Assembly (NCBI RefSeq): GCF_001570585.1
Contig: NZ_BBXF01000003.1
Location: 1,027,353-1,091,352, forward strand
Length of the DNA: 64,000 bases
Direction: 5' to 3'
Source of the DNA: Herbidospora daliensis
Lineage (GTDB): Bacteria > Actinomycetota > Actinomycetes > Streptosporangiales > Streptosporangiaceae
Shown: positions 5,527 through 36,615 of the stretch, piece by piece
How positions within the stretch are numbered: the stretch's first letter is position 1
Layout: every line of letters begins with the position of its first letter
Program-made: the position numbers and the translations under genes
Notes under the pieces: generated by a model
The model's input: only the letters and a program-made list of their open reading frames with translations
What the model was told of the DNA's origin: nothing
Databases searched by the model: none

Positions 5527-5596
5527 CGAGGCTCCCGGTAAGACAGCAGTCGACCAAGATCCGATGCCCCAACCGGGAGCCTCGTTGCTGTCTTAC
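5527..5596. repeat. Interleaved inverted repeats over the IS5 transposase start
   Basis: Two pairs of perfect inverted repeats are interleaved: A cgaggctcccggt (5527-5539) pairs with accgggagcctcg (5572-5584), and B gtaagacagca (5538-5548) pairs with tgctgtcttac (5586-5596). The order A-B-A'-B' is pseudoknot topology in RNA, and the transposase ATG at 5564 sits in the loop. It may be the left end of the IS, or a control structure for transposase expression. Confidence 0.5.
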
Positions 5597-6366
5597 AGTG
5601 CCGCGATTCCGCTGTCGAACGACGCCCTGGCCCGCCTGACTGATCTGATCCGCGCCCGCCGTGCGGAGCGCCGCTGCCGATGGCGGCGCCTGAGCGCCGG
5701 ACGTCAAGCCCTGCTGGTACTCGCCCACTTACGTAACGGCGACACCTACACCCGCCTGGCCTCGGGATTCTCCATCGGCACCACGACCGCTTGGCGCTAC
5801 GTCCAGGAGGCGGTCGACCTCCTGGCCGCCCTGGCCGACGATCTCCAGGCCGCCGTCACACGAGCCGGTCGACTGGCCTACGCCATCCTGGACGGCACCC
5901 TGATCCCCATCGACCGGCTCGCCGATCAAAAGTCCTACTACTCCGGGAAACACCGACGTCAGGACTGAACGTCCAGGTCCTCGCCGACCCCATCGGCCGG
6001 CTGGTCTGGGCCTCACCAGCCCTGCCCGGCGCCGTGCACGACCTGACCGCCGCCCGCACCACTGACCTCATCCACGCCCTGACCAGCGCTGGCATACCGA
6101 CCCTCGCCGACAAGGGCTACCAAGGCTCGGGCGGCACCATCCGCACCCCGTTCAAACGCCACCGGTATCGGCCGCGACTGTCCCCTGGACAGAAGGCCGT
6201 CAACCGCTCACACGCCCGCATCCGGGCCATGGGCGAACGCGCGGTCGCGACACTGAAGACCTGGAAAGTCCTGTCCAAACTCCGCTGCTGCCCGCACCGC
6301 GCCACCGCGATCGTGCAGGCAATCCTCACCCTTGACGCCGTCGAAACCGATCGCTACTCAGGATGA
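5564..6366 (+). pseudogene. IS5-family transposase, single-base frameshift
   Basis: DDE transposase in two overlapping frames. The first part (5564-5968) has the HTH region SAGRQALLVLAHLRNGDTYT, GTTTAWRYV and the first catalytic Asp in ILDGTLIPIDR. The second part (about 5958-6366) carries LPGAVHDLTAAR with the second Asp, DKGYQGSGG, and RAMGERAVATLKTWKVL with the Glu region. Joining them needs one extra base near 5956-5960, which restores KHRRHGLNVQ. That fits a one-base deletion. Programmed frameshifting is known in some IS5 subgroups, but no slippery run is visible here. The right end of the element must lie close to 6366-6373, where it interrupts the ApeA-like gene. Confidence 0.8.
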
Positions 6367-6371
6367 AAAAG

Positions 6372-6646
6372 GCTCAGTCTTCCAGCGTGTACGGCTTGCC
6401 GTCGGTCATGCCGTGGATACGCGGGTAGATGCCGTCACGATCGATGGACTCCCGGGCGTAGTCGATGGTGAGGATGCCGTCGCGCTCGGACCTCTCGCGG
6501 CCTTCGAACATGCCTCGGAAGATACCGATAAGCCGTAGTTCAACTCCGAAGTCAGGATCGAAGCGCAACGTCCCCGCGACCTGCCGCCCCGGATGTCCGG
6601 GAAGTCACCACTCGCCTACTGCCTCAAAGGCACGCCGAGACACCAT
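6372..6646 (-). pseudogene. 5' stump of an ApeA-type (HEPN) anti-phage gene
   Basis: From ATG at 6644-6646 the frame reads MVSRRAFEAVGEW, a TGA at 6605-6607 where the family has a second Trp, then LPGHPGRQVAGTLRFDP and, near the end, PRIHGMTDGKPYTLED. The pattern EVxGxWWLPG....V.GTL.FDP....IHG.TDG...TL is that of the ApeA N-terminal domain, found in proteins that carry a C-terminal HEPN ribonuclease domain and protect against phage. Only about the first 90 residues remain; the frame ends at the boundary with the IS5 element, which most likely cut the gene. Family call is from remembered motif pattern and needs a profile search. Confidence 0.55.
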
Positions 6647-6834
6647 CCGTGATCACCTTCCGCGTCTGGAGGCTCTTACCGTCGGGTCCCGCTCATAACG
6701 GGCACGAACTGACAGACATTCCTCGGCGTGCACAAAGGGCGCCAATTCGCATCGCGTTATCGAACGCGAGCCGGGACACCTGCTTAGCGGGTGGATCGTC
6801 CAAACCGTGTTTCCTTTACGGCTGACGGGGGTCG

Positions 6835-9800
6835 TTAGCGCGCACTATGGCGGGGGCCGTGGCCGGGAGGCGGGTCGAGTGGAGTCTGGTACGGCTTGCG
6901 CCCGTCCACGGCGTCCTGCATAGCGTCGTACATCTCCAGAATCAGCCGCTTGGTGCGATACTCGCCGTCGTATCTGGCCTCATCCTTGCGGCGAACAATT
7001 GGGAAGGCATCCATAATGTGGTCTACATCATCCCGTTCAACGCCATACAAATGCAAGAAGGCGGCGTCCAGTTCTGCTCGGAGCAGCTCCCGACGCGGCT
7101 CGTCCCACACGAAAGGTGCAGCGTTGTCACCTAGGTCTCGCGCGAATGATGCCATATCCCAACTCGTGAAAATGAGTTCAAGGATGCGACTAGAAATCCA
7201 TTCATACGCATCGTCAGCTGGGCCATCCCTCCAGGCTAGAGATTCAGAGAACCTACTAGGAGGAATTACCGGGAGTTGCTTCAGGAGTGTTTGGATGAGA
7301 TTAGCTCCACTCATCTTCTGCCTCGCTAAATAATCGAAGACGAATGAGCATAGATTGGCCAATAGGCAAGCTTGAGCAGGGACACTAAGCCTCGACACCA
7401 CAATTGGTGCACCATCCGCGATTCCAGAAAATGGAAGAACGGTGAATACCGCTACGCGCTGACTCGTTGTCACGCGAGCCATCTTTCTATAAGAGATAAT
7501 CCATTCTCGGTTGCTCGGCCAGCGTCGACTTGTCTCGGATCGTGGCACCCAATAGCGCGGCAATACGCCTCGGTCCGGATCAAGAGGCTGCATCAGTGGA
7601 TTAGTTGGAGCCTTTATAGAAAATCTCGCCTCGCGCGGAATTCCTTCGAATGTATTGAAGCGGTGATTAAAAATCTGAAAAAGCTTCGGTTCATACAGCG
7701 GGACGTATGCCACATCGCCTGCGCGATCCATAAAATTGGAACCTAGGAGCACATATCCATCCTCAATCAGTGATTCCCGATCCCGGAAGTGGCCACTGTC
7801 GTTGGACGAGTGATAAACGGTTCCGAAGCCCAACTCCCATGGATTAACCGATCCAGTCTCGCGGAATATGACTACAGAATTCCGATAAAGTTTCAGCGTG
7901 ACTTCTGCATCCCTGCGCGAAATGAACACTGGAATGGCGCTCGAGTTTGGGCTGACCTGAATAATTTCGTCTGGCGTGATCCGGAACCGACGATCCTCCA
8001 CAGCGAGCTGGCCCGGGTCATCTAGTAGGAAGCTGAGCTCGGCCAGCGTCGCTGGACTGCTCAATCCTGAAAGGGTCAGCAGGCAAAATCTTACAGGAGC
8101 CCCGACGGCAGGAAAGATCTTCCTCCTATTCTCAAAATCGAAGAGGGAGATAAGCTGTGCCGAATTTATTACGGCCTTGATGAATTCCTGAGTGGTTGCA
8201 TCTGTTGCGATACCTGTTGGCAGGATCACACCGATACGGCCGCAAGGGCTAAGGATTGATCTAGCGGTCTCAGCAAATATTGCATATGTATTAATATCGC
8301 CGCGGCCGGTCAGAGGAAAACGACCTGACGAACGCAGGAGGTGACTCTGTCCGTCAGCCTCGCGCTTGGATTCTAAAAACTGTTGATAAATCGCCCGGCC
8401 GAAATCAGTGTCAACCAGTCGCTTGATTAGCTTCTCGCGCGCTGCCTTATTTGGCGCGTTAGCAATTTCGTCATCGCGGGCCGCGAAGAACTCTTTCTCT
8501 AGGAGGGTTACCTTCTCCCAAGGCGGATTCCCAAGGACGCAGGTAAATCCACCTTTCCAGCCGGTTTCGGAGTTCTGATCTGCCGCCAATCCGCTAACGC
8601 GAAAAACCTCGGGAAATTCTAGATGCCAGTGGAAGAAGCGGTACTGCTCGGCAAGCGTGTCCAGCTCCTTACTTGTTGCATCGGGCAGCACACCACCGTC
8701 TTGCAAGTGGCGGATTGTGCTGGTCGTGATAGCGGTAGGAGCATCAGCGTGCTTACGCCAGACGAAGGCGGCACACCAGGCGTCAGCTGCACGACGGGCC
8801 CGGGTGAGGGCTTCGGAGGTGTCGAGCTCGCGGAAGCGGTGCTCCTGTTCCCGCACGTCCGCAACACGAGTAACCGGGATGGTGGCCAGCGTAAGAGCCT
8901 GCTCAGCCAGCTCCTTGTTCCCAACCCGCGTACCCACGTCGAACAGGGTGCCCTGGCTAGCGAGTTCCCGCCTGTTCTGTGCCTTCAAGGAGCTGACGAC
9001 CGTCTTGTCGTCACCCTCGATGGCTTTAAACGCGGTCTCCGGAACACCATTCGCCAGAAGGGCCGGCGTGGCGCCGAGGAGGGCGTTGCCAACTTTGATG
9101 TGGGCGTCGAGGAAGGCTAGCGGCTTGCCTGGTTCCACAGACTCGATCCAGAGGGAAACCTTGGCGAGTTCTGCGGCGAGAGGATTGAGATCAACTCCAT
9201 AGATGCACGTGCCGACGACCTTACGCATGGCCTCACGCACCGCCGATGGGACCGGCTCATCTTCGCCGGTGGCCAGGGCGGCGTATCGCTTGGCAATGCG
9301 GCGGGCTGCGGCGACCAAGAAATGGCCGGAGCCGCAGGCCGGGTCACAGACGGTGATTTTTAGAAGATCGTCGTGGTTGCCGGACTTGGCGTGTTCGTCG
9401 ATAACCGGGTCGAGCGCAGTGTCGAGCAGCGACTCTATGAGCGAGCTCGGCGTGTAGTACGACCCGGTGGTCTTCCGGTCGTTTCCGGAGACCTTGTCCC
9501 TCAGCTCGAAGCGGGGACCCATACCGTTGGACGTGGCATAAGGGACAAGTTCCAGGAGCGACTCGTAGATGCTGCCAAGTTCTTCGGCTCCCAGGTGCTG
9601 GAAGTCGACGTCGCGAGGGCGGCCATCCTTGTCTCGGACGGTGGACATCCTCCTGATAGCGGTCAGCAGCGCCTCGTTTGAGAGGTCACACCAGAGGAAC
9701 TGGTCAGGCTGCGGATCGTCGGTCAGTGTTTGGGCGGCGGCAGCCGTATGGAAGAAGAGGCCGCCGAGACCGGGCAGAGCGAGGGCAGACAGACCATCGT

Positions 9801-10872
9801 CCTCCCCTAGAGCAGCAATGACCTTGGCCGTGGTCTTCCAGAGGTCAGTGTGCCGGTCCCCGGAACGCTGGAGTGCGAGCCGGCGCAGGCGGCGGCTGGA
9901 GAAGTAGTCGGCGTAACGGTCCTTGGCTGCTTGTGGCGCCTTCGGGTCAAGCAGGGCGTTTCGGTCTTCGGCGACGAAAATGAATATGAGCTGGTAGGCG
10001 AGCCGGAGCAGCTCGTGGTGGAAGTCGCCCCTAACGAGCTTGCCGGATTCGAGCTGGTCACGGAGTTTGGGGTTGGCGACAAGGAAGCCCGTGCCGAGTG
10101 CTTCGAGGGCTTCCTTCACCCCGTTGCGCATCTGGTCCCGCGCCTTCATGCCGGTCTCGGCGGCGAAAGCGCGCCACTTCTCCAACCAGCAGTCGGCGCA
10201 GGTGGGCATCGAGTCGCCGTCCGGGAGCAACTCGAAGCGGGAGGCGTGCAGCAGCGTGTAGAGCAGCACGAAGTCCGAGTACAGCTCGCCGTCGAAGATG
10301 GCTTCGAGATCGAACTCGACGTACGCGGAGCCAACAAGCGCGGTGGAGTCGCGGAGGATGCGGAGCTGCCGACCGTTGGAGAGCACGCCCCACAGGTGGT
10401 CGTCGGAGAGGTTGAGGAACTCCTGCAACATCGACTGCGGAGCGCGCTTGGCGACTCCGGTGGCGCCCCGGTCGAGCGGAGTGTTCCACCCGATCAGGTG
10501 CATGGGCACGCTGTGCCAGAGGTGCGAGACGGCGAATTCCTTCTCCCCAACGCTGATGCTCCCACGGTTGAACGGGACGCGGCCAAAGCCGAATTCGTTC
10601 AGTAGGATGAGCAGCCAGCGGTCCCGGGTGATCGACGTGGCGGGGTCGCTCTCGGGAAGCATATCCACGCGCTCGCGGAAGGCGCGGTAGGCGCCGAGCA
10701 GGTACTCCCAACGGCGGCTGGCCGCATCGCCGAGGCGTTCGGCCGCCGCGAGGTGGTAGTCCTCAGATCGCATACCGGGGAGGTCCCGGTCCGCGGCGGC
10801 GATGCGGGAGAGCACATCCATCGGGATGAGACTGCCCTGAACCTCGACGGCGAGGTAGGCGGCGCTCCTCAT
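6835..10872 (-). CDS. Eco57I-type DNA methyltransferase, DISARM DrmMI-like
   Basis: 1345 aa. Expected to methylate adenine in host DNA using S-adenosylmethionine, so that its partner helicases spare self DNA. A long N-terminal region is followed by GSYYTPSSLIESLL, the SAM-binding motif DPACGSGH (about residues 508-515), YGVDLNPLAAELAKVSLW, and the catalytic NPPW (about 782-785) typical of N6-adenine methyltransferases. The remaining roughly 560 residues should contain target recognition. Size and motifs fit DrmMI of class 1 DISARM or a type IIG/BREX-PglX relative. ATG at 10870-10872 overlaps the upstream stop as ATGA. From about the NPPW motif to 7150 the DNA is much more AT-rich than the first half, pointing to a swapped recognition domain. 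Last gene of the operon. Confidence 0.85.
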   Translation of the reverse strand: MRSAAYLAVEVQGSLIPMDVLSRIAAADRDLPGMRSEDYHLAAAERLGDAASRRWEYLLGAYRAFRERVDMLPESDPATSITRDRWLLILLNEFGFGRVPFNRGSISVGEKEFAVSHLWHSVPMHLIGWNTPLDRGATGVAKRAPQSMLQEFLNLSDDHLWGVLSNGRQLRILRDSTALVGSAYVEFDLEAIFDGELYSDFVLLYTLLHASRFELLPDGDSMPTCADCWLEKWRAFAAETGMKARDQMRNGVKEALEALGTGFLVANPKLRDQLESGKLVRGDFHHELLRLAYQLIFIFVAEDRNALLDPKAPQAAKDRYADYFSSRRLRRLALQRSGDRHTDLWKTTAKVIAALGEDDGLSALALPGLGGLFFHTAAAAQTLTDDPQPDQFLWCDLSNEALLTAIRRMSTVRDKDGRPRDVDFQHLGAEELGSIYESLLELVPYATSNGMGPRFELRDKVSGNDRKTTGSYYTPSSLIESLLDTALDPVIDEHAKSGNHDDLLKITVCDPACGSGHFLVAAARRIAKRYAALATGEDEPVPSAVREAMRKVVGTCIYGVDLNPLAAELAKVSLWIESVEPGKPLAFLDAHIKVGNALLGATPALLANGVPETAFKAIEGDDKTVVSSLKAQNRRELASQGTLFDVGTRVGNKELAEQALTLATIPVTRVADVREQEHRFRELDTSEALTRARRAADAWCAAFVWRKHADAPTAITTSTIRHLQDGGVLPDATSKELDTLAEQYRFFHWHLEFPEVFRVSGLAADQNSETGWKGGFTCVLGNPPWEKVTLLEKEFFAARDDEIANAPNKAAREKLIKRLVDTDFGRAIYQQFLESKREADGQSHLLRSSGRFPLTGRGDINTYAIFAETARSILSPCGRIGVILPTGIATDATTQEFIKAVINSAQLISLFDFENRRKIFPAVGAPVRFCLLTLSGLSSPATLAELSFLLDDPGQLAVEDRRFRITPDEIIQVSPNSSAIPVFISRRDAEVTLKLYRNSVVIFRETGSVNPWELGFGTVYHSSNDSGHFRDRESLIEDGYVLLGSNFMDRAGDVAYVPLYEPKLFQIFNHRFNTFEGIPREARFSIKAPTNPLMQPLDPDRGVLPRYWVPRSETSRRWPSNREWIISYRKMARVTTSQRVAVFTVLPFSGIADGAPIVVSRLSVPAQACLLANLCSFVFDYLARQKMSGANLIQTLLKQLPVIPPSRFSESLAWRDGPADDAYEWISSRILELIFTSWDMASFARDLGDNAAPFVWDEPRRELLRAELDAAFLHLYGVERDDVDHIMDAFPIVRRKDEARYDGEYRTKRLILEMYDAMQDAVDGRKPYQTPLDPPPGHGPRHSAR

Positions 10873-13727
10873 CGGGCATCGCCAGCCGGGAGGTAGACGT
10901 ACACACCGAGCACGTCGGCGGGGTGGTTGGCGGTCACCTTCAGTCCTCTCGTGCCCGCACCGACGGCGCCGCGGACCCGTTGGTGGGATTCTGCGAGCTT
11001 TGTGGCGAGCGTGTCGCCGCGGGCGCCCAGCTCGGCGGCGAACTCCGGGGACAGTTCCCGGCGGATCTCGCCGGTCGTCTCGTCCACTGTCTCGGTGACG
11101 AGTTCAGTCATGGCCCGCTCGGCTGTGCGCCGGACCAGTTCGGGCAGCGTGTTGGCCGGTCTCGCAGTGAGCAGTTCGGTGACCTCGTCGTCGCTCAGCC
11201 ATTCCCGTCCATCGGTTCCGGCTCGGTAGCAGACGACCTGGGCGTCCTCGGCGACCAGAGTGCGGGGTCCAGTACGGCCGGGCAGGGTCACGTGGAAGCG
11301 GTAGCGAACGAGGAGCAGCGTGGTGCGTGCGCTGACGGAGTCCGTGCGGATCACTCCGCAACGGCGGGCCGGCCCTTCCGCGTCAAGTGCCGAGTCCAGG
11401 ACCGTCCGGGCCAGGTTGCGGACCATGGGGTCGGTGCGGACCAGCGCGTGCGTGCCCACCGGGGCGGGGATGTCCGGGTGGAAGTCCAGGTTCGCGGTCT
11501 TGCCGTTGGTGGTGAGGCCGAGTGCGTGGCGTACCGAGACCGGGAACTGGCGAGTGTCGGCGTGGAAGCCGTCGGTGCGGGGTTCGACGATCGCCCCGAA
11601 GCCGGATAGCGAGTCACGGGCGAAGCGGGAGACGTCTGCGGAGCTGCCGAGGGCCGCGCGGATCTCCGCGACCTCCCGCTGGACCTCGTCGAGCTTGACA
11701 CCGGAGTGGGCGTACTTGGTGAGAGCCTTGGACTCGCGGTCCGCGGCGCTTTCCCAGGCCCGGTGCATCTGATCGCGTGTCTTGGTCACTCCGAAGTCGA
11801 GGTCGAGCTGGTCCTGGTTCTCCTCATTCCGCAGCAGCAGGCCCTCGATCAGCGACTTCACAACGTCCTCACCACCGGTCGGGACGGGCACGGCGACACC
11901 GGTGCGGCGGGCGATAGTGCGGTGCTTGCGGATGAGCACGTCGAGCACGACTCCGTCGATGCCGTTGTCTAGGCCGTAGAGGGTGACCGCGCGCACCAGC
12001 GGGCGGCGCTGGCCGAACCGGTCGACGCGACCTTCGCGCTGCTCGTGCCGGGTCGGGTTCCACGCCAGGTCGTAGTGGATGACCGCCTGGAAGCTCTCCT
12101 GGAGGTTGACCCCCTCGGAAAGGCAGTCGGTCGCGACGAGGACATGCCTGCCGGGTTCCTCAGCGAGCTCCCTGATGACCTTCTGCCGTGCCTCCGGAGG
12201 AAGCTGCCCGGTGACGTGACGGACATGGGCCTTCTTGCCAAGCGCCTTGGCCAGGTGCTCGGCAACGTAGTGGGCGGTGGGGATGAAGCGGCAGAACACG
12301 ATCGGGTCGTAGCCGTCGGCGAGCAGCGCCTTGACCTCGTTGATCAGCGCGGCCAGCTTCGCGTCGTCCTGCGGTCCTTCGATCTTGAGGAATGCGCGGG
12401 CCAGGCGTCGCAGGCGTTCGGTGTCCGGCGATGCCGAGTCGTCCTCGGTCTCGGTGAGCGCGCCGGCAGCGGCGTCGAGGCCTTCAAGGGTCTCCCCATC
12501 GGTGAGGTCGAGGACGCTGCGGCCGAGCTCGTCGGCCTCGGTGTCGTTTTCGGCGGCGACGGTGACCGAACGGGTCTTCAGGGTTTCGGCGGCAGCCCGA
12601 GGGGATGAGGCCACCGAGCGCAGCATGGCCAGTGCCGACCACCACGAGACCCGCTGTCGCAGGCCCGTGCCGGGCTTGCGGACGGTCTCCCGGGCGTAGG
12701 CGAGTACCTGGCGGGCGAGCTTGCCATATTCGCCGGTGAGCGAGTATGAGACGTCGCGGACCTGGCGGTCCTGCGGGAAGGGCGTCTCCTCATCCAGGTA
12801 ACGGCGGATGTCGCGGCGACGGCGCTGGACGAAGTGGCGGGCAAGCGCCTCGCGGCCCTTGACGCTGTCGAGGTCGATGGTGGCGAGTGCCGGGTCGAGC
12901 AGCGCGATGAGGTCACGGAAGGCCTCCTCCTTGCCGCTGTGCGGGGTCGCGGTAACCAAGAGCAGGTGCCGGAGCGGGTCGGCGGCGAGCTCTTGCAGCA
13001 GCCGGTAACGGAGCTGACTTTGCTTGCTGGACGACCCCGCCGAGACGCAGGTGTGGGCCTCGTCCACGATGACCAGGTCGGGGCAGGTCCGGACGAACTG
13101 CTGATAACGCCTGTTGGCTTTGATGAAATCGGTCGAGACCACAGTGATCGGATGCCGGTCGAAGATGGACTCGTCCAGCCGGAGTTCGCGCTCCAGCCGG
13201 GTCGCGGTGGAGGCCAGCACCAGCGTCGCCTCAATGGCGAACTTGTCACGCAGCTCCGCCTGCCACTGCTCCGCCAGCGCAGGGGCACAGAGCACCGTCA
13301 GGCCGGACGCCTCGCCGCGTTCCAGCAGTTCCTTGGCGGTCAGGGCTGCTTCGACGGTCTTGCCGATGCCGACGTCGTCGCCGATGAGCAGCCTGACCGT
13401 TTCCATGCGTAAGGCGAGCAGCATTGGGACGAGCTGGTACTGGCGCGGCTCGACGGCGATGGAGGCCAGGGAACGGAACGGCCCGGCACTCGAGGTGAAA
13501 CCGATCCGCAGTGCCGTACGGAGCAAGCCCGCCGCGACGCTGTCGCCGACCTCGTCCGCCGTCGGTGGCGGGAAGGTGGCGGCTGTGACCTCATCTGCAA
13601 ACAGGCACGCCTCGAAGTCCGTGTCGCCGTTGAGTGGACGGACCATGAGAAAGTGATCGTCACTGCCAGGTTGAACGACCCATTCACGTCCTCGGGCAGC
13701 GACAAGAGACCCCGCAGTGTGGCTCAT
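10869..13727 (-). CDS. SNF2-type helicase/ATPase, DISARM DrmD-like
   Basis: 952 aa superfamily 2 ATPase. Motifs in order: [11 protein letters not shown] (Q-like region), Walker [10 protein letters not shown] (about residue 112), [13 protein letters not shown] (about 219), [10 protein letters not shown] (about 256), then in the second lobe [27 protein letters not shown] and [15 protein letters not shown] (about 565). This is the COG0553-like layout of the SNF2 helicase DrmD that accompanies DrmMI in class 1 DISARM. The start is ATG at 13725-13727, which overlaps the upstream TGA by ATGA and has GGGGAAG in front; an upstream in-frame start at 13784 would force a 61-base overlap and is less likely. 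A long C-terminal tail is unassigned. Confidence 0.85.
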
Positions 13728-16700
13728 CGGCTTCCCCTGCCAGCGCCGAAAACGCTCGGGTATCTGCGCACGATCTCGTCCCACTCCTCGTCATGTCTGA
13801 ATCGGATGACCAACCAGCCAAGGTCCATCAGCCGGTCTTCTGCCTGCATGTCGCGCTCGCTCACATCGGGGAAGTCGTGGTGCGGACCATCAACAAAGAT
13901 CGCGACGTTGCCGGCCTGCGTGCGATAGAAGAAGTCCGGTTTGGCCAGGGCACCCGCGACGATCTCCTGAGATCCGTCCGGCAGCCGGTAGTCGCGTTCC
14001 CTGAGGAAATCGACGAAGCTCCGCTCCAGCTGGCTGTCGGCGGAGTCCCGGAGAGCGCCGACGTGCTGCTCGGCGGTCCGGTGCCCGCTCGACGGCTCGG
14101 TATTTGATTGCGCGAGATCGCGGAGGATCTCGACGACGCTCTGCCGGTCGATCTGTTCGTGCCACCACTGGTTGGTGTAAGAGAGGAGGCAGTCATAGCA
14201 GCCGCGTTCGCAGCGCTCGCGAGCTCCGGGAGCGTGACCGCGGTCCTCGCCCGTCTCGGGGTCGATGTGGATGATGTCGAGTGCCCGGGCCGCGACCTTG
14301 CGAAGGGCATCGCGCTCATCGTGGAGTCTCCGGAGGACTCCGGCCCCACCCTCGGCACTCTCGATGAAAAGCATCCGGGCGCGTCCATGCGGGTCGTCCA
14401 GCGGCTCACTGCTGAGTTCGGCGTCCTCAAGCTGGAACTCCGCCTCAATGCCACGCTCCAGCGCATACCGCAGGGTGGTGGCGACGGAGTCATTGACTTG
14501 TTCGGCGAGCCGAATGACGCAGATGTTCTTCCGATCTTCCACAAAGGGGACGACCTTTGTGATCCGCTGCGCCTTCTCCATGGAGATCAGACCTGCGTCC
14601 TCCGGCGCCTGGTTGGCCGCGTCGGAGTCCTTTACCCACCGCCCCTTGATGGGATCCAGCCAGTAGCCGATGTCGTTGCGGTTCTTTCGTCCGCGGCGCC
14701 CTTGGTTGATGATGCGGACAGTCGCGGTGTCACCGTAGATCAGCTCGGCCAGCGGACCGTCCGTCCCCTGGATGGCCGCCTTGAGACGACCGGAACGACT
14801 CCCATGGGTGCTGAAGCGGTAGCTCGTCTTCAGGTCGAAGCCGGCCTTGCGCCGCTCCTCCTCGTCTGAGGAGATCCTCTGGCGGCGGATTGTGTGGACG
14901 GTTTGCAGGTGCATCAAGCCGGAGAGCGACCCACCCAGTTCAACCCCGCACTCCTCGCACTGCTCGGTGCCCGCTTCGCGGTCGTGCCAGTAGCCGCACT
15001 CCGCGCAGATCCGAGCCTCGCCGGTCGCGACCTCCCCCGGTTCCCCTGCGGGCACCTGGATCTTGGCAACCTCGTAGCGGCGGCCTTCGTGATAGATGAG
15101 GGCGCCCGGACCGAACTCGCCGATCGCGATGAACCGGGGGCGCTGGATGTAGCTGGCCTTCTTCCTTTCCCCCGGGATATAGGCGGCCAGCGGAAGCCGG
15201 GGGAACGAGTAACCGGGCAGGAAGCCCTCAGAGGCGAAATAGCGATAGGTGTAGAAGTCGCTGAACTGGCGGTCGGTGTCCTCGTTCTTCAGGAGCCGCA
15301 ACTGATTCTCCGCCTGGCGACGCCGCCCCTGGGCCTGATTTCGGGACTGGGGGGTCGCCGCATGGTCCAATACCCGGCGGTTCTGTTCAGCCTGCTCGGC
15401 GGTGGCCGCGCGGAACAGGTCTCGCCACCGATCGCAGGCGGCGTCGAATCCGGCGGCTGCATTGCGGATGGTGTGCTCAACCCACCCCTCGTACCACCAG
15501 GCGCTGTCGCCGAGGCGTTCCTTGGCCAGGAGATCGGCCACCATCTTCTTCGCCCGAGGCAGTGCTCGATGGAACGCCTGCTCGTCCTCTAACTGGAGCC
15601 GAAGGTTGTCGTGGATCGGCAGTTCGTCCACGAGGGAGACGTTGAGCACCTCGGGCATCCGCGAGTACAGCGAGGCTCTCGTCTCGGCGAGCCAGATGGC
15701 ATGCACGTGGGAGCGGACGAGGTCCTCATTGGTGAGGTCCAGCCGTGGCGGCTGAACGCGGCCGACAACCATCTGCTCGGAACGCCGGAAGTAGTACTGA
15801 TCGTGCGGGCTGCCGGTGGAGCAATAGGTGGTGATCAGCGCGGGCTGGCCGCTCCGTCCCGCACGGCCCGAACGCTGCGCGTAGTTGGCAGGAGTGGGAG
15901 GGACATTACGCATCGCGACGGAGTTGAGGGTGGCGATGTCGACGCCCAACTCCATCGTGGGCGAGCAGTACATCAGGGGCAACGTGCCGTCACGGAATCG
16001 TTTCTCGCGCTCCTGGCGTATGTCCGCCTGGACCTGAGCCGTGTGCTCGGCCGCGTGGATGCCGGCCAGGTTCCCCGCGACCGTGGCGTAGAGATCGCGA
16101 AAGAACTTGTTGACCCTGACACCCACCTCCGAGTCGACGGTCTTGCGCAGCGGATCGGAGGCTCCCTCCTTGCCACTGCCTGCCCGCCAGATCAGCTCGG
16201 AGGACTTGACCCGATAGCCTCGAGCGCCGTTTTGGGTCTGGTCCACCTGGACCAGCAGGCCATACTTCTCCATGACCCACAGCAACTGGGTGATGATCAG
16301 GTGTGCGTCGTCGACAGAGATCGCGTGCGGGAAATGAGGGAACGCCCCGGGGCGGCGCAAATAGCGTCCAAGCGCGGAGCGACCGGTGAAGTTGACCCGG
16401 TCCCGGCTCTCTCCCGGCCGCCCAGATTGAGCGAAGACGGTGGCTGCCCCGACTCGCCCATCGGGATCACTGAGCGCCCACACTCCGGTCAGGTGCTGCT
16501 CGGACTGCGTGAAGATCCGCTCGTACCCATCGAGGGTGAGTACGTCCACGTCGACTGCGAGTGCGCGGCGCATCTCGTCGAGCACGATGCGCGCCAGTGC
16601 GGCGCGGTGAACGGGTTCGTCGTTGCGCAGCGCCGGGTGTGTCTTCTCCCAAAACTCGGAGTCGGCGGCGATCTCGTCCAGGGCTATGTAATCGAATTTC

Positions 16701-18886
16701 AAGAGCCCGGTCTGCTCCAGGTTGGGCATGGTGATGCGCCAGCCCCGCGCCAGATCGACGTAGATCAAGTAGGAAAGGGCCCCGCGTAACGACTTGAGCA
16801 CATGCTCGCGCTGTCCGAACTTCACGTCAGGGTTCTGGGCGAAGCCGGCCAACGGCAGATCTAGCGCCTTGGCCACGCGCTGGGCCACGTCGTCGTGGTG
16901 CAGGCCGTCGTCTCCGGCTGTCGCGGCGGCCCGATAGACAGCGCCGCGCACCTGGGTCACCTGAACGAAGTCGTTGAGATGACCCGCCTGCAGGCTCGCA
17001 TCCTGCCGGTTGTCGACGAAGGTGAGCAGTTTGCGCGCCTTCTCGTCGAGGTTCCGCTGTTCGCGCAGGTTCCGGACGATGCTTGTACTGATGATCGACA
17101 TTGCCGAACTGCGGCCCTCACTGGCGAAGGTCGCCAGCTTGGCGAAGTCCTTGCCCCGAGCCTGCTCGTAGGAGACCCGGCAGCGTAGGCAGTACCGGAA
17201 CGGCTCACGGAAGTACCACGCCCGCTGTCCTTCGCCCGCGGGGCTCTCGCCGCCTCCCGGGCCGATCCAGACTTCGCGCGGTAGGTGGTCCCTGTGGGTC
17301 GCTCTGACCTGGCTGCCACCATCTGCGGCCAGCTCCAGCCACGAGTCGGGGAGCCTGCCAGCGGCGACAGGGTCGAAAGGCCAGGGGTGGTCAGAGCTGA
17401 CGTAAAGGTAGCCGTTGGCCGCCTCGCCACCGGCTACGTTGGCCTCCTGACGAGCAGCGTAACTGCCGTCTTTTCGCCGGGAGACCACCAGGTAGTCCTG
17501 GCCACACTCCCGGCAGAAGGCAAGCGGAAGAAGGATCTTCTCTCGGTGCCCGGGGACACTCACCTGGTATTGGCTGGTGATGTACCGCCCGTCCTCGGGA
17601 TCCAGGCTGACGTATGCGGTGTCCCCCTTGGAGAGGAACTGGTGCAGCCGGAACGCGAAAAGCGGCCGGGCGGTCTCCGGGTGCAGCGCCCTGGCCCCCT
17701 CCTGAAGGACCTCCTCGATCACCTCGGCGCATTCCTCCGCCGACCGTTCCGTTAGCTCGGCCAGAGTCTTGGCGGCCTCGGCGACCTTCGTGGGCTTCTG
17801 GCGAACCAGCCGCCCGCCACCCGGTTCTCTGGTCAGACCGAACTCTGACTCGACCCAGCTTGTCAGCGGATCCTGCGCCATGTCTCTGTAGGATCGATCG
17901 CTACCCGCATCAAACATTGACGCCTGCAGTTCGGCTTTGCCAGTTTTTCGGTCGGCAGTGGCACGAACGAGCGTCTCCCCGATCACCCGATCGGGAGTGA
18001 CATCGATGCCGAAGAGCCTTGTCGCCACTCCCGCGACGACATCCTGTGCCTCAGCAAAGGTGGGGGTACTGGCCATTGTGGCCGAGGTTCCGACGCACTG
18101 AAGATCTGGTGCCATGCACGCGTCGCGCAGCCGCCGAACGAGGAGACTGACATCGGCGCCTTGGCGGCCTCGGTAGGTGTGCAGCTCGTCGAGAACGAGG
18201 AATCGCAGGCCCTGTGCGGCACCGATTAGATCCCTGCGCTCAGCAGGCCGTGTCAGCAGATACTCAAGCATGACGTAGTTGGTGAGCAGGATATCTGGTT
18301 TGCGAGCAAGGATGCGGGCCCGCTGCTCCTCGCTCTCTTGCCCGGTGTAACGTTCGAAACTGACCAGATGGCTTTCTTTGGGCAATCCCCATTGTAGATA
18401 TCGGGTGAGCTCCTCCAATTGACTGTTAGCCAGCGCGTTCATCGGATAGACGACGATGGCTTTGACCCGCCCCGGGGCCGGATCGCGCAGGATCGAGTCA
18501 ACGATCGGCACCATATAGGCAAGGCTCTTGCCCGAGCCGGTCCCCGTCGTGAGCACATAGCTACGGCCATCTCGTGCCGCCTCGACGGCTTCCCTCTGAT
18601 GCTGATGGAGGTTGATCGTCCGTGTTCCAGGGTCGCTCACGTCGGATTTGGGGCGGAAGTACTGCTCACAGGCGGGATGAAGCACGCCTTGTGCGATTAG
18701 CTCTGTGATGGTGCCACCACTGGCGAAGCTGGGGTTGAGGGAGACCCACGGATGGGGCCAGCGAACTCGCGCCTCCCGTTCGTTCTTCAGGTACGCGGCG
18801 ATACGCGGGTCACGAACACTCACCAACGACGTCGTGAACTCGTCGTAGTCGGCGATGAGCCGCTCATGTACCTGGAAAACGTCCAT
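13724..18886 (-). CDS. Helicase-DUF1998 fusion with C-terminal DUF559/Vsr-like nuclease
   Basis: 1720 aa, first gene of the operon. N-terminal superfamily 2 helicase: TTGTGSGKS (residues 113-121), VVYPMNALA, DELH (233-236), GTSATMAS (266-273), and in the second lobe GVDIATLN and QRSGRAGR (about 1002-1009). A zinc ribbon, CAECG...CEECG, lies near residues 1292-1312. A DUF1998-type region follows with FIESAEGGAGVLRRL and CERGCYDCLLSY (about 1560). The last 110 residues look like a DUF559/Vsr PD-(D/E)xK nuclease: LERSFVDFL, AKPDFFYR, AIFVDGPHHDF, then LMDLGWLVIRFRHDEEW. DrmA (helicase) and DrmB (DUF1998) of DISARM are separate proteins; here both roles and a nuclease seem to share one chain. Domain calls are by motif; the nuclease is the least certain. 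Confidence 0.82.
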   Translation of the reverse strand: MDVFQVHERLIADYDEFTTSLVSVRDPRIAAYLKNEREARVRWPHPWVSLNPSFASGGTITELIAQGVLHPACEQYFRPKSDVSDPGTRTINLHQHQREAVEAARDGRSYVLTTGTGSGKSLAYMVPIVDSILRDPAPGRVKAIVVYPMNALANSQLEELTRYLQWGLPKESHLVSFERYTGQESEEQRARILARKPDILLTNYVMLEYLLTRPAERRDLIGAAQGLRFLVLDELHTYRGRQGADVSLLVRRLRDACMAPDLQCVGTSATMASTPTFAEAQDVVAGVATRLFGIDVTPDRVIGETLVRATADRKTGKAELQASMFDAGSDRSYRDMAQDPLTSWVESEFGLTREPGGGRLVRQKPTKVAEAAKTLAELTERSAEECAEVIEEVLQEGARALHPETARPLFAFRLHQFLSKGDTAYVSLDPEDGRYITSQYQVSVPGHREKILLPLAFCRECGQDYLVVSRRKDGSYAARQEANVAGGEAANGYLYVSSDHPWPFDPVAAGRLPDSWLELAADGGSQVRATHRDHLPREVWIGPGGGESPAGEGQRAWYFREPFRYCLRCRVSYEQARGKDFAKLATFASEGRSSAMSIISTSIVRNLREQRNLDEKARKLLTFVDNRQDASLQAGHLNDFVQVTQVRGAVYRAAATAGDDGLHHDDVAQRVAKALDLPLAGFAQNPDVKFGQREHVLKSLRGALSYLIYVDLARGWRITMPNLEQTGLLKFDYIALDEIAADSEFWEKTHPALRNDEPVHRAALARIVLDEMRRALAVDVDVLTLDGYERIFTQSEQHLTGVWALSDPDGRVGAATVFAQSGRPGESRDRVNFTGRSALGRYLRRPGAFPHFPHAISVDDAHLIITQLLWVMEKYGLLVQVDQTQNGARGYRVKSSELIWRAGSGKEGASDPLRKTVDSEVGVRVNKFFRDLYATVAGNLAGIHAAEHTAQVQADIRQEREKRFRDGTLPLMYCSPTMELGVDIATLNSVAMRNVPPTPANYAQRSGRAGRSGQPALITTYCSTGSPHDQYYFRRSEQMVVGRVQPPRLDLTNEDLVRSHVHAIWLAETRASLYSRMPEVLNVSLVDELPIHDNLRLQLEDEQAFHRALPRAKKMVADLLAKERLGDSAWWYEGWVEHTIRNAAAGFDAACDRWRDLFRAATAEQAEQNRRVLDHAATPQSRNQAQGRRRQAENQLRLLKNEDTDRQFSDFYTYRYFASEGFLPGYSFPRLPLAAYIPGERKKASYIQRPRFIAIGEFGPGALIYHEGRRYEVAKIQVPAGEPGEVATGEARICAECGYWHDREAGTEQCEECGVELGGSLSGLMHLQTVHTIRRQRISSDEEERRKAGFDLKTSYRFSTHGSRSGRLKAAIQGTDGPLAELIYGDTATVRIINQGRRGRKNRNDIGYWLDPIKGRWVKDSDAANQAPEDAGLISMEKAQRITKVVPFVEDRKNICVIRLAEQVNDSVATTLRYALERGIEAEFQLEDAELSSEPLDDPHGRARMLFIESAEGGAGVLRRLHDERDALRKVAARALDIIHIDPETGEDRGHAPGARERCERGCYDCLLSYTNQWWHEQIDRQSVVEILRDLAQSNTEPSSGHRTAEQHVGALRDSADSQLERSFVDFLRERDYRLPDGSQEIVAGALAKPDFFYRTQAGNVAIFVDGPHHDFPDVSERDMQAEDRLMDLGWLVIRFRHDEEWDEIVRRYPSVFGAGRGSR

Positions 18887-19377
18887 CCCCTATCCACCAC
18901 TACCTTCCAGAGAGTGTGACCTTAATTGCCGTTTTGGTAGGCATTAATGGCCACCTTTGTGTCGGCGACGATGATCCAGGCCGTAAAGGTAAACCAGCGG
19001 AGGCCATTGGGCCCGGCATGTAGGTAACGTTGGGATATCGGTACAGACTTAACGTTCTATGAAGAATCCTCACAGTCGACGGTCGCGGAAGTGTGAGGGA
19101 TGTGGCAGGCGATCCCTGCAAGAGGGGGCGGTATTGGTGCCCTTCTCGACACGCTGCACACAACAAGGTGCATCAATGGGCTGGCTACGACGTCGAGGCT
19201 GTCGTTAGCAAAGTCGTCTTCCTAGTAGTTCCACGGACTCATATCAGCGCCTCTGCTTGCGTCCGCTAACTTCCAGTTGTCTGCAACCAGCGTCTGCTAC
19301 CGGCCCTCGGCCAGAACCAAGGGACTGTTGTCGTTAGGCCGAACCGTTGTTCCTCCATTGAGAGGAAGGTGATGGCG
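18887..19377. other. Intergenic region upstream of the defence operon
   Basis: 491 bases between the helicase start and the degenerate integrase. No gene supported. It presumably holds the promoter of the minus-strand operon. A GGAAGG-like ribosome site (complement of ccttcc at 18903-18908) precedes the helicase ATG. An imperfect inverted repeat, cctcaca (19068-19074) and tgtgagg (19092-19098), is a possible operator. Confidence 0.45.
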
Positions 19378-20675
19378 ATGCGGAAGAGCCATCCGCTGGT
19401 CTACAAGCGATAAGGCTGCAAGGGGCGGAGAGGGAACTGCCCGAGACTGGGCGACCCGGGGCACGGGTCGTGGTACTTCGCAGTGCAGGTCCAAGGGCTA
19501 TCTGGCCGACGTGAGCGCGTCCAGCGGAGGTTACGCCAGCCGGGGCGAGGCCGCGCGAGCAGGTCGGATCCTAATCGCAGCCGAGCAGGAAAATTTCGAT
19601 CGGAGTGGGCTGCACGGTGGCGCAGGGGCTTCGGCACTGGCTGGCGTCTGACCAGGGCATCCGGCCGAGAACTCATCAGAGCTACGCGGACCATGTCCGC
19701 CTGCATCTGATCCCGGCGCTGGGGCGGATCAGGCTGTCGGAACTCTCCCAGCGCCATGTACAGCGGATGTTCATCGCGCTGGGCAACCGCCGAAACCGCT
19801 ATGGCAAGCCGTTGACGGCGGCATCGCTGGAGCGGATCCGCGCCACGCTACGGGTGTCGCTGAATGAGGCCGTACGGGAAGGGCTGATCGACGGCAATCC
19901 TGCCCGCAACCTGCGGCTGCGTGCTTCGCCGCGTCCACGGGCGTAAGTGTGGACCGACAGGCGGGTGGCGGTGTGGAAGGCCACTGGTGAGAGACCTGCG
20001 GTGGCAGTCTGGACGATCGCGCAGCTGGTGGCTTTCCTGGACGGGGTCCGCGATGATCGGCTGTTCCCTTTGTGGTGGCTGGCCGCACTCCGTGGGCTGC
20101 GTCGGGGCGAGCTGGCTGGCCTGCGTTGGATGGACCTCAGCCTGGAGACCGCCGAACTCGTTGTTGAACGGCAACTGGTGCAGGTCGACGGAAAATTGGT
20201 CGCCTCGCCACCCAAGAGCGCGGCCAGCCGGCGCACCGTCGCACTGGACAGGCAGACAGTCCGCCTCCTACGGCGTCATGAGCACGACCTACGAAGAGAG
20301 AGGTCCCGCCGCGGGGAGCCTTGGGATGATTCCGCCGGTGTCTTCATACGCCAGGACGGTCGTACGGTGGCGCCGGACTATCTGACCTACCGGTTCCTTA
20401 AGCTGGTAGAAGAGAGCGGGCTACCGCCGGTACGGTTGCACGACCTGCGACACGGAGCCGCCACGATGGTGCTAGCCGCGCATGTGGATCTGCCAGTGGT
20501 GCAGGGGCAGGTGGGGCATGCCAGCATCGTGCTGACCGCCGACACCTACACCTCGGTTCTGCCGGAGCTACACCATCGAGCGGCCGAGGCGACGGCGAGG
20601 CTGGTGATATCGGCAGCGCGGGGAACCGCCCGGAAGGTGCGGCGGGGCAAATGCGGCTGGATGACCCAGGTATGA
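19378..20675 (+). pseudogene. Tyrosine recombinase (integrase), inactivated
   Basis: Paralogue of the intact integrase at 35148-36431, in the same orientation and with the same downstream sequence. Starting at ATG 19378 it reads MRKSHPLVYKR, then TAA at 19411-19413 where the intact copy has Cys. Frameshifts follow near 19530-19610, then GIRPRTHQSYADHVRLHL, another stop (TAA at 19944-19946, Gln in the copy), and finally an intact catalytic half with ALRGLRRGELAGLRW, LHDLRHGAATMVLAAHV, GHASIVLTADTYTSV. The Arg, His-x-x-Arg, His and Tyr residues are present, but the arm/core-binding half is broken, so the element it served is probably immobile. The copies differ at many bases, so this is not a recent duplication. 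Confidence 0.85.
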
Positions 20676-20738
20676 CCCATCCGTTTCCCAGGCCATGATC
20701 GTGGGATCTTGGACCTGAGAGGATGTGCAGGTCATAGG

Positions 20739-20790
20739 TGGTGGGGCGCCAGGGATTCGAACCCTGAACCTACGGATTAAAAGTTCGCAG
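20739..20790 (-). repeat. tRNA-Lys 3'-end attachment-site copy 1
   Basis: Read on the minus strand this is CGAACTTTTAATCCG (anticodon arm, UUU), a perfect T arm around GGTTCGAAT, the 3' acceptor half and CCA. It is identical over 52 bases to 36495-36546 except for one base at 20785. No 5' half of a tRNA follows, as the sequence diverges after 20790. It sits 63 bases after the dead integrase, the usual place for attL/attR. Interpreted as an attachment-site scar. Confidence 0.75.
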
Positions 20791-21983: not shown

Positions 21984-22526
21984 ATGGAACTGACGGCCAC
22001 GACAACCATTCGCAGACCCGCGACCGAGGTCTACGCGTTCTGGCGCGACCTGGAGAACCTGCCGACGTTCATGGCGCATCTCCAGGAGGTCCGCGCCACG
22101 GGTGACCGTACGAGCCGGTGGGTCGCCGACGCGCCGTTCGGCAAGGACATCGCGTGGGACGCGGAGATCCTCGAGGAGAGGCCCGGCGAGAAGATCTCCT
22201 GGCGGTCGGCCGCCGACGCCGACGTGCCCAACGCCGGCACGGTCCGCTTCACGCCCGCCCCGGACGGAATCAGCACCGAGGTGCACATCGCGCTGGTGTA
22301 CGACATCCCGGGCGGCACGATCGGCAAGGCGGTCGCCAAGTACTTCGGCGAGGAACCCCACCAGCAGCTCGACGACGACCTGCGCCGGCTCAAGCAGGTC
22401 ATGGAGACCGGCGAGGTCGTCCGGTCCGACGGCGCGCCGTGGGGCAAGCGGGCCCGCGAGGAGTTCCCGCAGCGTCCGGCGCAACCGCTGTCGGACGCCG
22501 AACTCGCGAAGGGAGCAGGCCGATGA
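21984..22526 (+). CDS. SRPBCC-family (START-like) protein
   Basis: 180 aa, from ATG 21984 with a strong GGAGGAG seven bases upstream. It opens MELTATTTIRRPATEVYAFW, has LPTFMAHLQEV, and later ISWRSAADADVPNAGTV and a helix at YDIPGGTIGKAVAKYF. This is the helix-grip SRPBCC pattern (COG5637/polyketide cyclase-like group), a cavity fold that binds hydrophobic small molecules. Substrate unknown. No signal or membrane segment. Its TGA overlaps the ATG of the next gene (ATGA), so the two are translationally coupled and probably act together. An alternative start at 21957 is less likely given the ribosome site. Confidence 0.85.
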   Translation: MELTATTTIRRPATEVYAFWRDLENLPTFMAHLQEVRATGDRTSRWVADAPFGKDIAWDAEILEERPGEKISWRSAADADVPNAGTVRFTPAPDGISTEVHIALVYDIPGGTIGKAVAKYFGEEPHQQLDDDLRRLKQVMETGEVVRSDGAPWGKRAREEFPQRPAQPLSDAELAKGAGR

Positions 22527-27525: not shown

Positions 27526-27527
27526 GG

Positions 27528-34500: not shown

Positions 34501-35147
34501 TGACTCGGCGACATCAGCGATTCCCGGCGCGAGCTGATCGACTCCGGGGTGGAAGCCCGCAGGGGCCGACGCCGTCCGGCGTCATTTGGGCCGCCAGAAT
34601 TCCGAAGAAGTCTTCGCAGATGTCCTGAGCCGTCCGTGATGGCACCTGGCAGTTTGTGGCTACTGGTGAGCCCAGACTGGATGTTCGCAGCGCCTCGTGA
34701 CACCCCTGATCCCAGGGCCACGTCTTGATCACGTCGTTGTGAAGAGGGCGCTGTTTCTCCACAGCCCCACTCGGCTCCGTTGGTGTCAGCTAGAAGGCTC
34801 GATCGGTGGCGGCGTCATTGAGTGAGTGAAAGGCATTGGCGGCGAGGCTGAGACTGCGCTGGACGCTGTGATTGGCGTAGCCGGATGTGGCCCTTGTTTC
34901 CCTAGAACCCGGTAGCTAAGGAGTCCCCGTGTGGTCGGTGATGGCCGGCCCGACTGACCGGGGTGGTGCAGTCGACGCGGATTCGTGGATCGAGATCCAG
35001 GCCGAATGGCCGAGACGCTCTCCGGTTCATGCCATCTGCTGACAAGGGCCGCGCCGATCTCGGCCTCTTGAGGCGTTTCTTGCATGATCGATGCCGTCAC
35101 GATCGCCGGATTCACGTTTCTCCGTTTTAAGGAGGAGGGTGATAACG
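34501..35147. other. Gene-free stretch before the integrase
   Basis: 647 bases. Open frames on both strands lack family patterns. It ends with the strong ribosome site GGAGGAGGGT (35131-35140) of the integrase gene. Confidence 0.45.
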
Positions 35148-36431
35148 ATGGGTGAGAGTCATCCGGTGATCTACAAGAGGTGCGGTTGCACCGGGCGGAG
35201 CGGGTGTCCCAGGCTGGCCGAGGACGGGCATGGCTCGTGGTATTTCGCCGTGCAGGTTCAGGGCCTGTCGGGGCAGCGGGAGCGCATGCGGCGGGGTGGA
35301 TACGCCAGCGCAGGGGAAGCCGAACAAGCAGGGCTGCAGATGATCGCGTCTGAACACGGCGGGGGCATCGGGGCGGCATGCACCGTGGCGCAGTGGCTCC
35401 GCTACTGGCTGGCAACCGATCAGGGCATCCGGCCGAGGACACGTCAGGGGTACGCGGATCACGTCCGTTTGCACCTGCTCCCGGCGCTGGGGCGAATCAG
35501 GCTGGCGGAGCTGTCCTTCCGCGATGTGCGGCGGATGTTCATGGTGTTGGCCGGGCGCCGGAACCGGTACGGCAGGCCGTTGGCGGCGGCGTCGCTGGAA
35601 CGGATCCGTGCCACGTTGCGGGCGGCGCTGAACGAGGCCGTCCGGGAAGGGCTGATCGACGCCAATCCCGCTCGTGGGTTGCGGTTGCCTGCCGCGCCGC
35701 GTCCGAGGGCGCAGGTGTGGACCGATCGGCGGGTGGCGGTGTGGAGGGCGACCGGTGAGAGGCCGACTGTGGCGGTCTGGACGGTGCCGCAGCTGGTGGA
35801 CTTCTTGGACGGCGTCCGCGGTGATGCCTTGTTCCCGCTGTGGTGGCTGGCGGCGCTGCGTGGGCTTCGCCGGGGGGAACTCGCCGGCCTGCGCTGGGTG
35901 GATCTCAGCCTGGAGACCGCCGAACTCGCCGTGGTCCGGCAACTGGTGCAGGTCGGTGGAAGGCTGGTGTCTTTCCCGCCGAAGAGCCAGGCCAGTAGGC
36001 GTACGGTCGCGCTGGATCCGCAAACGGTCCGGCTACTGCGCCGCCACGAACGTGAGCAGCGAACTGAGGGAAGGTTCTGTGACGGCAGGGCGCAGGTCTT
36101 CACTCGGATGGACGGCAGCCCGGTGGCACCGGACTACCTGACTTACCGGTTCCGTAAGCTGGTTCGAGAGAGCGGGCTGCCACCGGTGCGGCTGCATGAC
36201 CTGCGGCACGGCGCCGTGACGATGGCGCTGGCCGCGCACGTGGATCTGCCGGTGGTCCAAGACCAGGTGGGGCACGCCAGCATCGTGCTGACCGCCGACA
36301 CCTACACCTCGGTGCTGCCGGAACTGCAACACGAGGCCGCCAGGGCAACGGCGCATCAGGTGATGTCAGCGGCCCGCAGAGCTGCCCGGAAGGTGCGCCG
36401 GGGGAGGTGCGGGTGGATGACCCAGGTATGA
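35148..36431 (+). CDS. Tyrosine recombinase (site-specific integrase)
   Basis: 427 aa from ATG 35148, eight bases after GGAGGAGGGT; an upstream frame start at 35091 is not needed. N-terminal arm-binding region with CGCTGRSGCPRL and GSWYFAVQVQGLSG, then a SAM-like core-binding domain (IRPRTRQGYADHVRLHLLPA). The catalytic domain has Arg in ALRGLRRGELAGLRW, Lys region in SQASRRTVALD, LHDLRHGAVTMALAAHV with H-x-x-R, GHASIVLTADTYTSVLPEL with the second His and nucleophilic Tyr. All key residues look intact. It lies directly before a tRNA-Lys 3' end, its probable target. No excisionase is recognisable nearby. Confidence 0.93.
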   Translation: MGESHPVIYKRCGCTGRSGCPRLAEDGHGSWYFAVQVQGLSGQRERMRRGGYASAGEAEQAGLQMIASEHGGGIGAACTVAQWLRYWLATDQGIRPRTRQGYADHVRLHLLPALGRIRLAELSFRDVRRMFMVLAGRRNRYGRPLAAASLERIRATLRAALNEAVREGLIDANPARGLRLPAAPRPRAQVWTDRRVAVWRATGERPTVAVWTVPQLVDFLDGVRGDALFPLWWLAALRGLRRGELAGLRWVDLSLETAELAVVRQLVQVGGRLVSFPPKSQASRRTVALDPQTVRLLRRHEREQRTEGRFCDGRAQVFTRMDGSPVAPDYLTYRFRKLVRESGLPPVRLHDLRHGAVTMALAAHVDLPVVQDQVGHASIVLTADTYTSVLPELQHEAARATAHQVMSAARRAARKVRRGRCGWMTQV

Positions 36432-36494
36432 CCCATCCGTGTCCCAGGCCATGATCGGGGGATCTTGGACCTGGGAGGACGCGCAGGTCAAGAG

Positions 36495-36546
36495 TGGTGG
36501 GGCGCCAGGGATTCGAACCCTGAACCTACGGATTAAAAGTCCGCAG
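36495..36546 (-). repeat. tRNA-Lys 3'-end attachment-site copy 2
   Basis: Same 52 bases as 20739-20790 with one mismatch (36541). It lies 63 bases after the intact integrase, as copy 1 does after the dead one. The two copies are direct repeats 15.7 kb apart and bound the putative second island. Confidence 0.75.
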
Positions 36547-36570
36547 GCCCCGCCGCTGTGGCGCAGCCCC
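36495..36570 (-). tRNA. tRNA-Lys(UUU)-like sequence, probably a pseudo-tRNA/att site
   Basis: Minus strand, 76 bases ending in CCA. The anticodon arm CGGACTTTTAATCCG (36529-36543, anticodon UUU), T arm (36506-36522) and 3' acceptor half GCGCCCC are perfect. The 5' half starts GGGGCTG, so the last two acceptor pairs fail; the D arm has no proper stem and position 8 is C instead of T. The length is right for a tRNA, but the 5' half looks rearranged. I read it as a pseudo-tRNA produced by integration; a diverged functional gene is less likely. Confidence 0.45.
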
Positions 36571-36615
36571 ACTGGTTAGGCTGCCATAGGTAGACCGACC
36601 AAAGGCGAGCAGACC

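Follow-up and report, generated by a model that had tools for sequence, protein, structure and literature searches.

A predicted ARMADA type I operon of Herbidospora daliensis and the exchanged block of its methyltransferase

The 8.52-Mb genome of Herbidospora daliensis carries, within a stretch of 64,000 nucleotides (C3:1027353-1091352; hereafter the window, to which positions refer unless another locus is named), a three-gene operon that by its sequence is a newly found member of an already described system, ARMADA type I. One block of the methyltransferase encoded by its third gene has a history that differs from that of the rest of the operon. We think it quite probable that the operon is an anti-phage system lodged on an immobilised tRNA-Lys element, in which the block would act as a target-recognition domain (TRD) and the two motor proteins would be recruited to the DNA.

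All three genes lie on the minus strand. Gene 1 (13724..18886, 1720 aa) encodes a YprA-family helicase, assigned from its open reading frame, profiles, alignment and tree, in which DEAD and Helicase_C domains are joined to an MZB/DUF1998 domain and a C-terminal nuclease-like domain; gene 2 (10869..13727, 952 aa counted from ATG 13727) encodes a SNF2/RapA/BrxHII-like ATPase, recognized by its open reading frame and profiles (SNF2 and Helicase_C); and gene 3 (6835..10872, 1345 aa) encodes a PglX-like N6-adenine DNA methyltransferase, recognized by profiles (Eco57I/N6_Mtase) and motifs (DPACGSG at residue 510, NPPW at residue 782). The frame of the SNF2 gene is open from GTG 13784, and its in-frame ATG at 13727 yields an ATGA overlap with gene 1 (13724-13727); a second ATGA overlap (10869-10872) joins the SNF2 and methyltransferase genes. 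The first-pass annotation of this DNA had described three intact minus-strand genes with two such overlaps, coding for a helicase/DUF1998 fusion, a SNF2 ATPase and an Eco57I-type methyltransferase, and the reading frames, both overlaps and the Pfam domains of all three proteins agree with that description. The window trio bears the Walker A and B motifs, DPACGSG and NPPW, all of which are kept in relatives, in alignments of 60 helicase, 60 SNF2 and 56 methyltransferase rows (55 common to all three) from which L125-L127 and any protein shorter than 1650, 880 and 1250 aa, respectively, were omitted. Promoter-like and terminator-like sites in 6300-19400 number 1 and 6, against 1.8 and 7.1 expected.

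According to the preprint that names ARMADA (Bell et al., bioRxiv 2025; PMC12458937), type I consists of a YprA helicase, then a BrxHII-like helicase, then a PglX-like methylase, and is marked by a C-terminal Vsr-type nuclease, a single zinc-bearing OB-region insert and abundance in Actinomycetota. The operon had previously been filed as a compact DISARM-like defence system, namely a minimal class 1 DISARM with drmA and drmB fused and drmC replaced by a different nuclease. DISARM profiles do recognize its SNF2 protein (DrmD) and its methylase (DrmMI): in PADLOC the former scores 965 bits with DpdE, 261 with DrmD and 216 with BrxHI/BrxHII, and the latter 197 bits with DrmMI. Moreover, DrmAB is the sole significant PDB match of a structural model of the C-terminal part of the helicase. 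However, the helicase as a whole scores 327 bits with the DruE profile versus 49 bits with DrmA, and neither the trio proteins nor the 30 flanking ORFs that were scanned gave a PLD match, as expected of the nuclease DrmC. In a helicase tree of 37 rows, built by a quick search with long outgroup branches and without the preprint's labelled sequences among its rows, the window protein lies inside a 21-row clade of trio-locus helicases (SH-aLRT 100); ten DruE-type rows form a separate clade (support 100), beside which stands an E. coli plasmid protein (2113 aa, with an annotated ATP-dependent helicase encoded next after it; support 82), and one DrmA row, on a long branch, and the genome's own SftH-like helicase fall outside the 21-row clade. 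An earlier tree had the same 21-row clade but held a wrong-frame ORF (L137, with no PADLOC match at E<=1e-30), which was left out of this one. Proteins of the YprA family usually have helicase and DUF1998 fused, and it is DISARM that is peculiar in splitting them (PMC12458937).

A minimal DISARM born of a drmA and drmB merger is disfavoured by the profile scores and the tree, and we give the DISARM reading a very low probability. What stands of the first-pass annotation is a defence-type operon of three closely packed genes in mobile DNA, with helicase and DUF1998 fused and a nuclease-like C-terminal domain without a separate DrmC; its filing as a DISARM formed by merger does not. A match to a different described system, which it had itself named as telling against DISARM, was found, in ARMADA type I. 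DrmA profile searches at strict limits gave no match with PDLC02570 in 200 family genomes or with PDLC02569 in 246 phylum genomes, but control genomes were equally without match, so that this negative carries no weight. The NCBIfam matches displayed for the three proteins were all below their cut-offs, including RapA for the SNF2 protein and PglX for the methyltransferase. The solved chains nearest to the helicase by sequence are a 2108-aa DEAD/DEAH helicase (9tu7) and, next, YprA/MrfA (6znp).

Some individual domains of the helicase are consistent with type I. The RecA1 (DEAD) domain (18065..18604, minus strand; residues 95-274), placed by Pfam and motif positions, has Walker A at 116 and DELH at 233, and the MZB/DUF1998 zinc-binding domain (14186..14473, minus strand; residues 1472-1567) is found by Pfam in 54 of 54 aligned helicase rows. 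CxxC motifs at 458, 566, 1294 and 1310 are invariant in the 54 rows and agree with the zinc-binding CxxC pairs of ARMADA type I, which lie in its RecA2 insert with one more in the OB region; as folds, these inserts of the window helicase are putative. The C-terminal nuclease-like domain (13757..14059, minus strand; about residues 1610-1710) has PDFFY at 1650 and VDGPHH at 1665, and its weak Pfam matches to MTES_1575 and DUF559 lie below the cut-offs in the window protein; at E<=1, 41 of 54 rows match DUF559, 35 match MTES_1575 and 3 match Vsr. Foldseek returned no significant nuclease fold for the C-terminal model. An insert after RecA1 that is BrxA-like is a lineage mark of ARMADA type I (PMC12458937); the model of the insert at this place in the window helicase has a pLDDT of 84.5, and neither a PDB match at E<=0.001 in the structure search nor any match in the Pfam lists displayed points to BrxA.

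The trio is a conserved unit. All 66 loci examined were picked by their match to the window helicase. In 58 of the 61 with a full-length helicase (1650 aa or longer) the three genes follow in the same order and orientation, so that absence of the trio elsewhere, which the first-pass annotation had also held up as evidence against it, is not observed; in 50 of these 58 neither spacer exceeds 150 bp. The exceptions are a contig that ends inside the SNF2 gene (L124), a locus with the order SNF2-methylase-YprA (L125) and a 9.8-kb contig in which neither partner was found (L126). Matches to the window helicase at E<=1e-30 occur in 63 of 200 family genomes and 32 of 396 phylum genomes, counts that take in Druantia-type helicases and, in both cases, the window's own genome. 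The closest operon among the loci found belongs to Streptosporangium subroseum, of the same family and another genus, with a helicase 93% identical. ARMADA-type helicases (a selection among helicase matches, three of them partial) and DruE are present in 39 and 33 of the 200 family genomes, and their co-occurrence in 10, versus 6.4 expected, is not significant (Fisher p 0.096).

Outside these genomes, 319 plasmid records match the window helicase, with at least 80% of it covered at one place in 70, and 50,697 phage records yielded 3 weak matches. The plasmid trios extend to other phyla. Annotated trios in the same order are carried by plasmid MP1 of the well-studied Deinococcus radiodurans R1 (L151, 12001-23497; the methylase as two CDS, with a transposase adjoining), Nocardioides pNOCA01, Acinetobacter soli (helicase unannotated) and Kozakia; in Chroococcidiopsis and Planktothrix the SNF2-methylase pair comes first and YprA follows after other genes, and an order with SNF2-methylase first has been described for cyanobacteria (PMC12458937). 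In two distant actinobacterial genomes an extra 2.2-2.4 kb lies inside the trio (L106, about 9626-11998, with an 801-aa ORF; L107, about 6987-9140).

The operon stands among remnants of mobile DNA, and the integrases, insertion-sequence remnants and dead ApeA gene reported on first inspection were all recovered. The ApeA relic (6377..6631, minus strand), an N-terminal part with an in-frame stop, is 65% identical over 85 aa to the N-terminus of the intact ApeA of L009 (PF18862 + PF18739) and is cut short some 10 bases away from the ORF of a transposase relic (5564..6366, plus strand), whose HTH_Tnp_4 and DDE_Tnp_4 matches, above the Pfam cut-off, lie in two frames; a search for the ApeA HEPN domain found no match because only the N-terminal part of ApeA is left. 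Another transposase relic (1659-2676) has Pfam matches below the cut-off. A decayed tyrosine integrase attributed to the operon-bearing element (19342..20672, start approximate, plus strand) shares 79% identity over 359 aa with the intact tyrosine integrase of an inner neighbouring element (35091..36431, plus strand). Each integrase precedes one copy of an exact 47-bp repeat: the decayed one a copy of the tRNA-Lys 3' end that is a probable attachment site (20738..20784), and the intact one the copy (36494-36540) associated with the tRNA-Lys gene itself (gene 36495-36572, minus strand; with the repeat, 36494..36572). We read this arrangement as two elements, an outer one that carries the operon and has become immobile and, next to it, a younger inner one; a comparable layout has been described for E. 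coli islands (PMC12458937). No piece of the repeat of at least 12 bases elsewhere in the window marks a left end of the outer element, and the contig holds no third copy, by a search with a 21-base core and up to 2 mismatches. A single blastn of the flanking DNA gave no match among the matches listed, and of eight close relatives only L009 has flanking DNA (over 150 bp) in common with window positions 1-37000, at the ApeA relic; L009 has its intact ApeA at the corresponding place, followed by a McrB-like ORF.

Several neighbours deserve record in their own right. The inner element bounded by attachment sites (20738-36540) encodes, besides the intact integrase, ClpB (27528-30311), a MerR_2 regulator, GrpE, DnaK (31978-33876), a zinc alcohol dehydrogenase and a cNMP-binding FAD reductase; this content suggests a mobile island for protein quality control in an actinomycete. 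Of 62 loci examined, 19 have an ORF for a Ser/Thr protein kinase upstream of gene 1 and in the same orientation (identified by Pfam in one representative, L080:987-2066), and the main text of the ARMADA preprint makes no mention of a kinase (PMC12458937). Downstream of gene 3, 18 of 56 loci examined have a McrB-like AAA ORF (by Pfam in one representative, L005:22121-24178), which is absent from the window; an association with McrB was reported earlier for a DISARM-like cassette (PMC11090510). The conjugative plasmid pNOCA01 of Nocardioides sp. JS614 (L153, L152) carries drmA/drmB beside an ARMADA-type trio with McrBC. Thermus thermophilus pTthSNM3-3b (L154, 1-17252) has a variant array of brxL, helicase, NYN-domain protein, methylase, YprA-type helicase and 3'-5' exonuclease, adjoining type III-A CRISPR genes.

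The exchanged block of gene 3 (7123..8505, minus strand; about residues 790-1250) was located by identity, blastn and a clade test. Compared with its nearest relative, L005, the window trio is 93% identical in YprA, 96% in SNF2, 87% in methyltransferase residues 1-600, 39% in block residues 870-1200 and 86% in the tail; the corresponding values for L085 versus L087 are 93%, 93%, 98%, 46% and 83%. Per 100 residues, identity to L005 is 78-98% in the helicase and 91-99% in SNF2; by 75 residues, that of the methylase is 78-93% to residue 600, 53-65% in 601-900, 30-40% in 901-1200, 50% in 1201-1275 and 84% in the tail. Identity is already down at residue 601 (56-65%), so that the block edges are not sharp in the protein; in the DNA, blastn similarity to L005 extends from 18910 to 8482 and resumes from 7156, with none at 7157-8481. 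Helicase identity reaches 75% or more in 77 pairs; in 34 of these the block (870-1200) is at most 59% identical, the lowest value being 24%, and 12 of the 34 include the window or L009. In L089/L092, whose helicases are 97% identical, the drops fall mainly in three short sub-blocks, and exchange may therefore proceed by smaller units.

That the block is merely fast-evolving, with no exchange between lineages, is a very improbable explanation, even if two rows of the test group, the window and L009, are long-branched in the block tree. The test group, nine rows defined by helicase similarity, forms a clade in methyltransferase residues 1-600 (99.9), two YprA stretches (99.5, 99.7) and one SNF2 stretch (100), and this clade is rejected for the block (log-likelihood 154 lower, p-AU 1.3e-42). 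Equally divergent stretches keep it: mean pairwise identities are 41.0, 47.3 and 43.9% in the three clade-keeping YprA/SNF2 stretches versus 45.5% in the block. Furthermore, L004 and L091 present the reverse case, being closer in the block (70% identical) than in their helicases (55%). The tail (1210-1345) shows no clade, and the test of it there is undecided (p-AU 0.135). In the window methylase GC3 is 71-93% at residues 1-750 and 47-59% at 751-1275; 42 of 55 rows show a drop of more than 10 points, a trait of the group as a whole, and low GC3 alone is therefore no sign of recent import. The best plasmid match to window residues 870-1275 is in the alphaproteobacterial Kozakia trio (41%), roughly as close as relatives of the same family, which are 37-40% identical to the window in 870-1200 (L009 27%).

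By analogy we infer that the exchanged block is a TRD. It is placed after NPPW, as is the TRD of BrxX, in which a methyltransferase domain (MTD, 211-650) is followed by a TRD (651-837) that sets specificity, and is shifted in specificity by mutation, and by a CTD (838-1205) (PMC11842806). A phmmer search of the methyltransferase against PDB found the methylase core of a type I M protein and nothing else, so that the likeness to a TRD is one of position and not of homology. Judging from the sequences, target choice lies most likely in the methyltransferase, since the motors are constant while the block varies, and the motors would be blind to sequence. The methyltransferase would mark host DNA at a short site and would recognize the same site, unmethylated, in incoming DNA; on analogy with BREX, type I restriction-modification and DruE, the SNF2 and YprA motors would then be recruited and would act on DNA regardless of sequence, and the fused C-terminal nuclease of the YprA protein would cut. 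A new cassette would confer a new target, with the motors unchanged.

An unlikely though not far-fetched alternative is that the helicases of this ARMADA type I system sense DNA structure as DruE does, with an ancillary methylase whose block varies under phage inhibitors rather than as the setter of targets. DruE engages structures containing ssDNA and not a sequence (PMC13192584), and DNA mimics such as Ocr bind the TRD of BrxX (PMC11842806). Such pressure accords poorly with a block that is replaced whole, its changes not being scattered, and with the need for NPPW in ARMADA type II. In type II all four genes are needed, an NPPW mutant is unprotected and a SAM-motif mutant loses protection only in part (PMC12458937); type II, the tested type, has ArmD, which the window operon lacks.

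Restriction-modification systems are well known to exchange target-recognition domains. Cassette exchange within ARMADA is a result beyond the main text of the preprint, which makes no mention of it (PMC12458937), and no paper on it was found, supplements and closed journals lying outside the scope of that search. Naturally occurring pairs such as L085/L087, whose motors are nearly identical but whose cassettes differ, offer an experimental handle on the ARMADA mechanism. With the present assignment, a locus first called DISARM-like also passes to its proper family and stays out of counts of new minimal DISARM systems. The listed matches of the PADLOC version used were named DruE, DpdE/DrmD and DrmMI and none was named ARMADA; accordingly, surveys with that version may misname such loci.

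Among known systems, DISARM class 1 resembles the window operon in its DrmD-like SNF2 protein and DrmMI-like methylase, but differs in that helicase and DUF1998 are here unsplit, in one 1720-aa ORF, with a weak DrmA score and no PLD nuclease. Druantia supplies the closest profile to the helicase (DruE) and likewise unites helicase, DUF1998 and nuclease in one protein; unlike it, the window operon has SNF2 and methylase genes, a helicase clade of its own and no DruH-sized partner (about 1100 aa), the largest ORF listed in 18887-21800 being 242 aa, a judgement by ORF size rather than by profile. Nor does Pfam match a PLD domain, as borne by the DruE of Druantia type III, in the window helicase. 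BREX PglX/BrxX shares the succession of methylase domain and target-recognition region, the latter putative in the window protein; the BREX motors are of other families, and no PglZ- or BrxC-like gene is among the flanking ORFs scanned. ARMADA type II has the same three protein families, but in the order SNF2-methylase-YprA and with a fourth gene, ArmD (a GajB-like helicase), which was not found among the flanking ORFs scanned. With ARMADA type I there is no difference in gene content: a fused YprA-DUF1998 helicase with a putative C-terminal nuclease, a BrxHII/RapA-like helicase and a PglX-like methylase follow in the same order on one strand, without ArmD, in Actinomycetota, and on a mobile element at a tRNA gene, though the preprint describes such sites for E. 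coli type II islands (PMC12458937). On balance we lean slightly towards regarding ARMADA type I as a restriction machine reprogrammable by cassette, in which target choice would reside wholly in an exchangeable methylase block traded between lineages, and two sequence-blind motors and a fused nuclease would stay constant. If so, it would join type I restriction-modification, type IIL and BREX as a further architecture in which a single module redirects self-marking and attack together.
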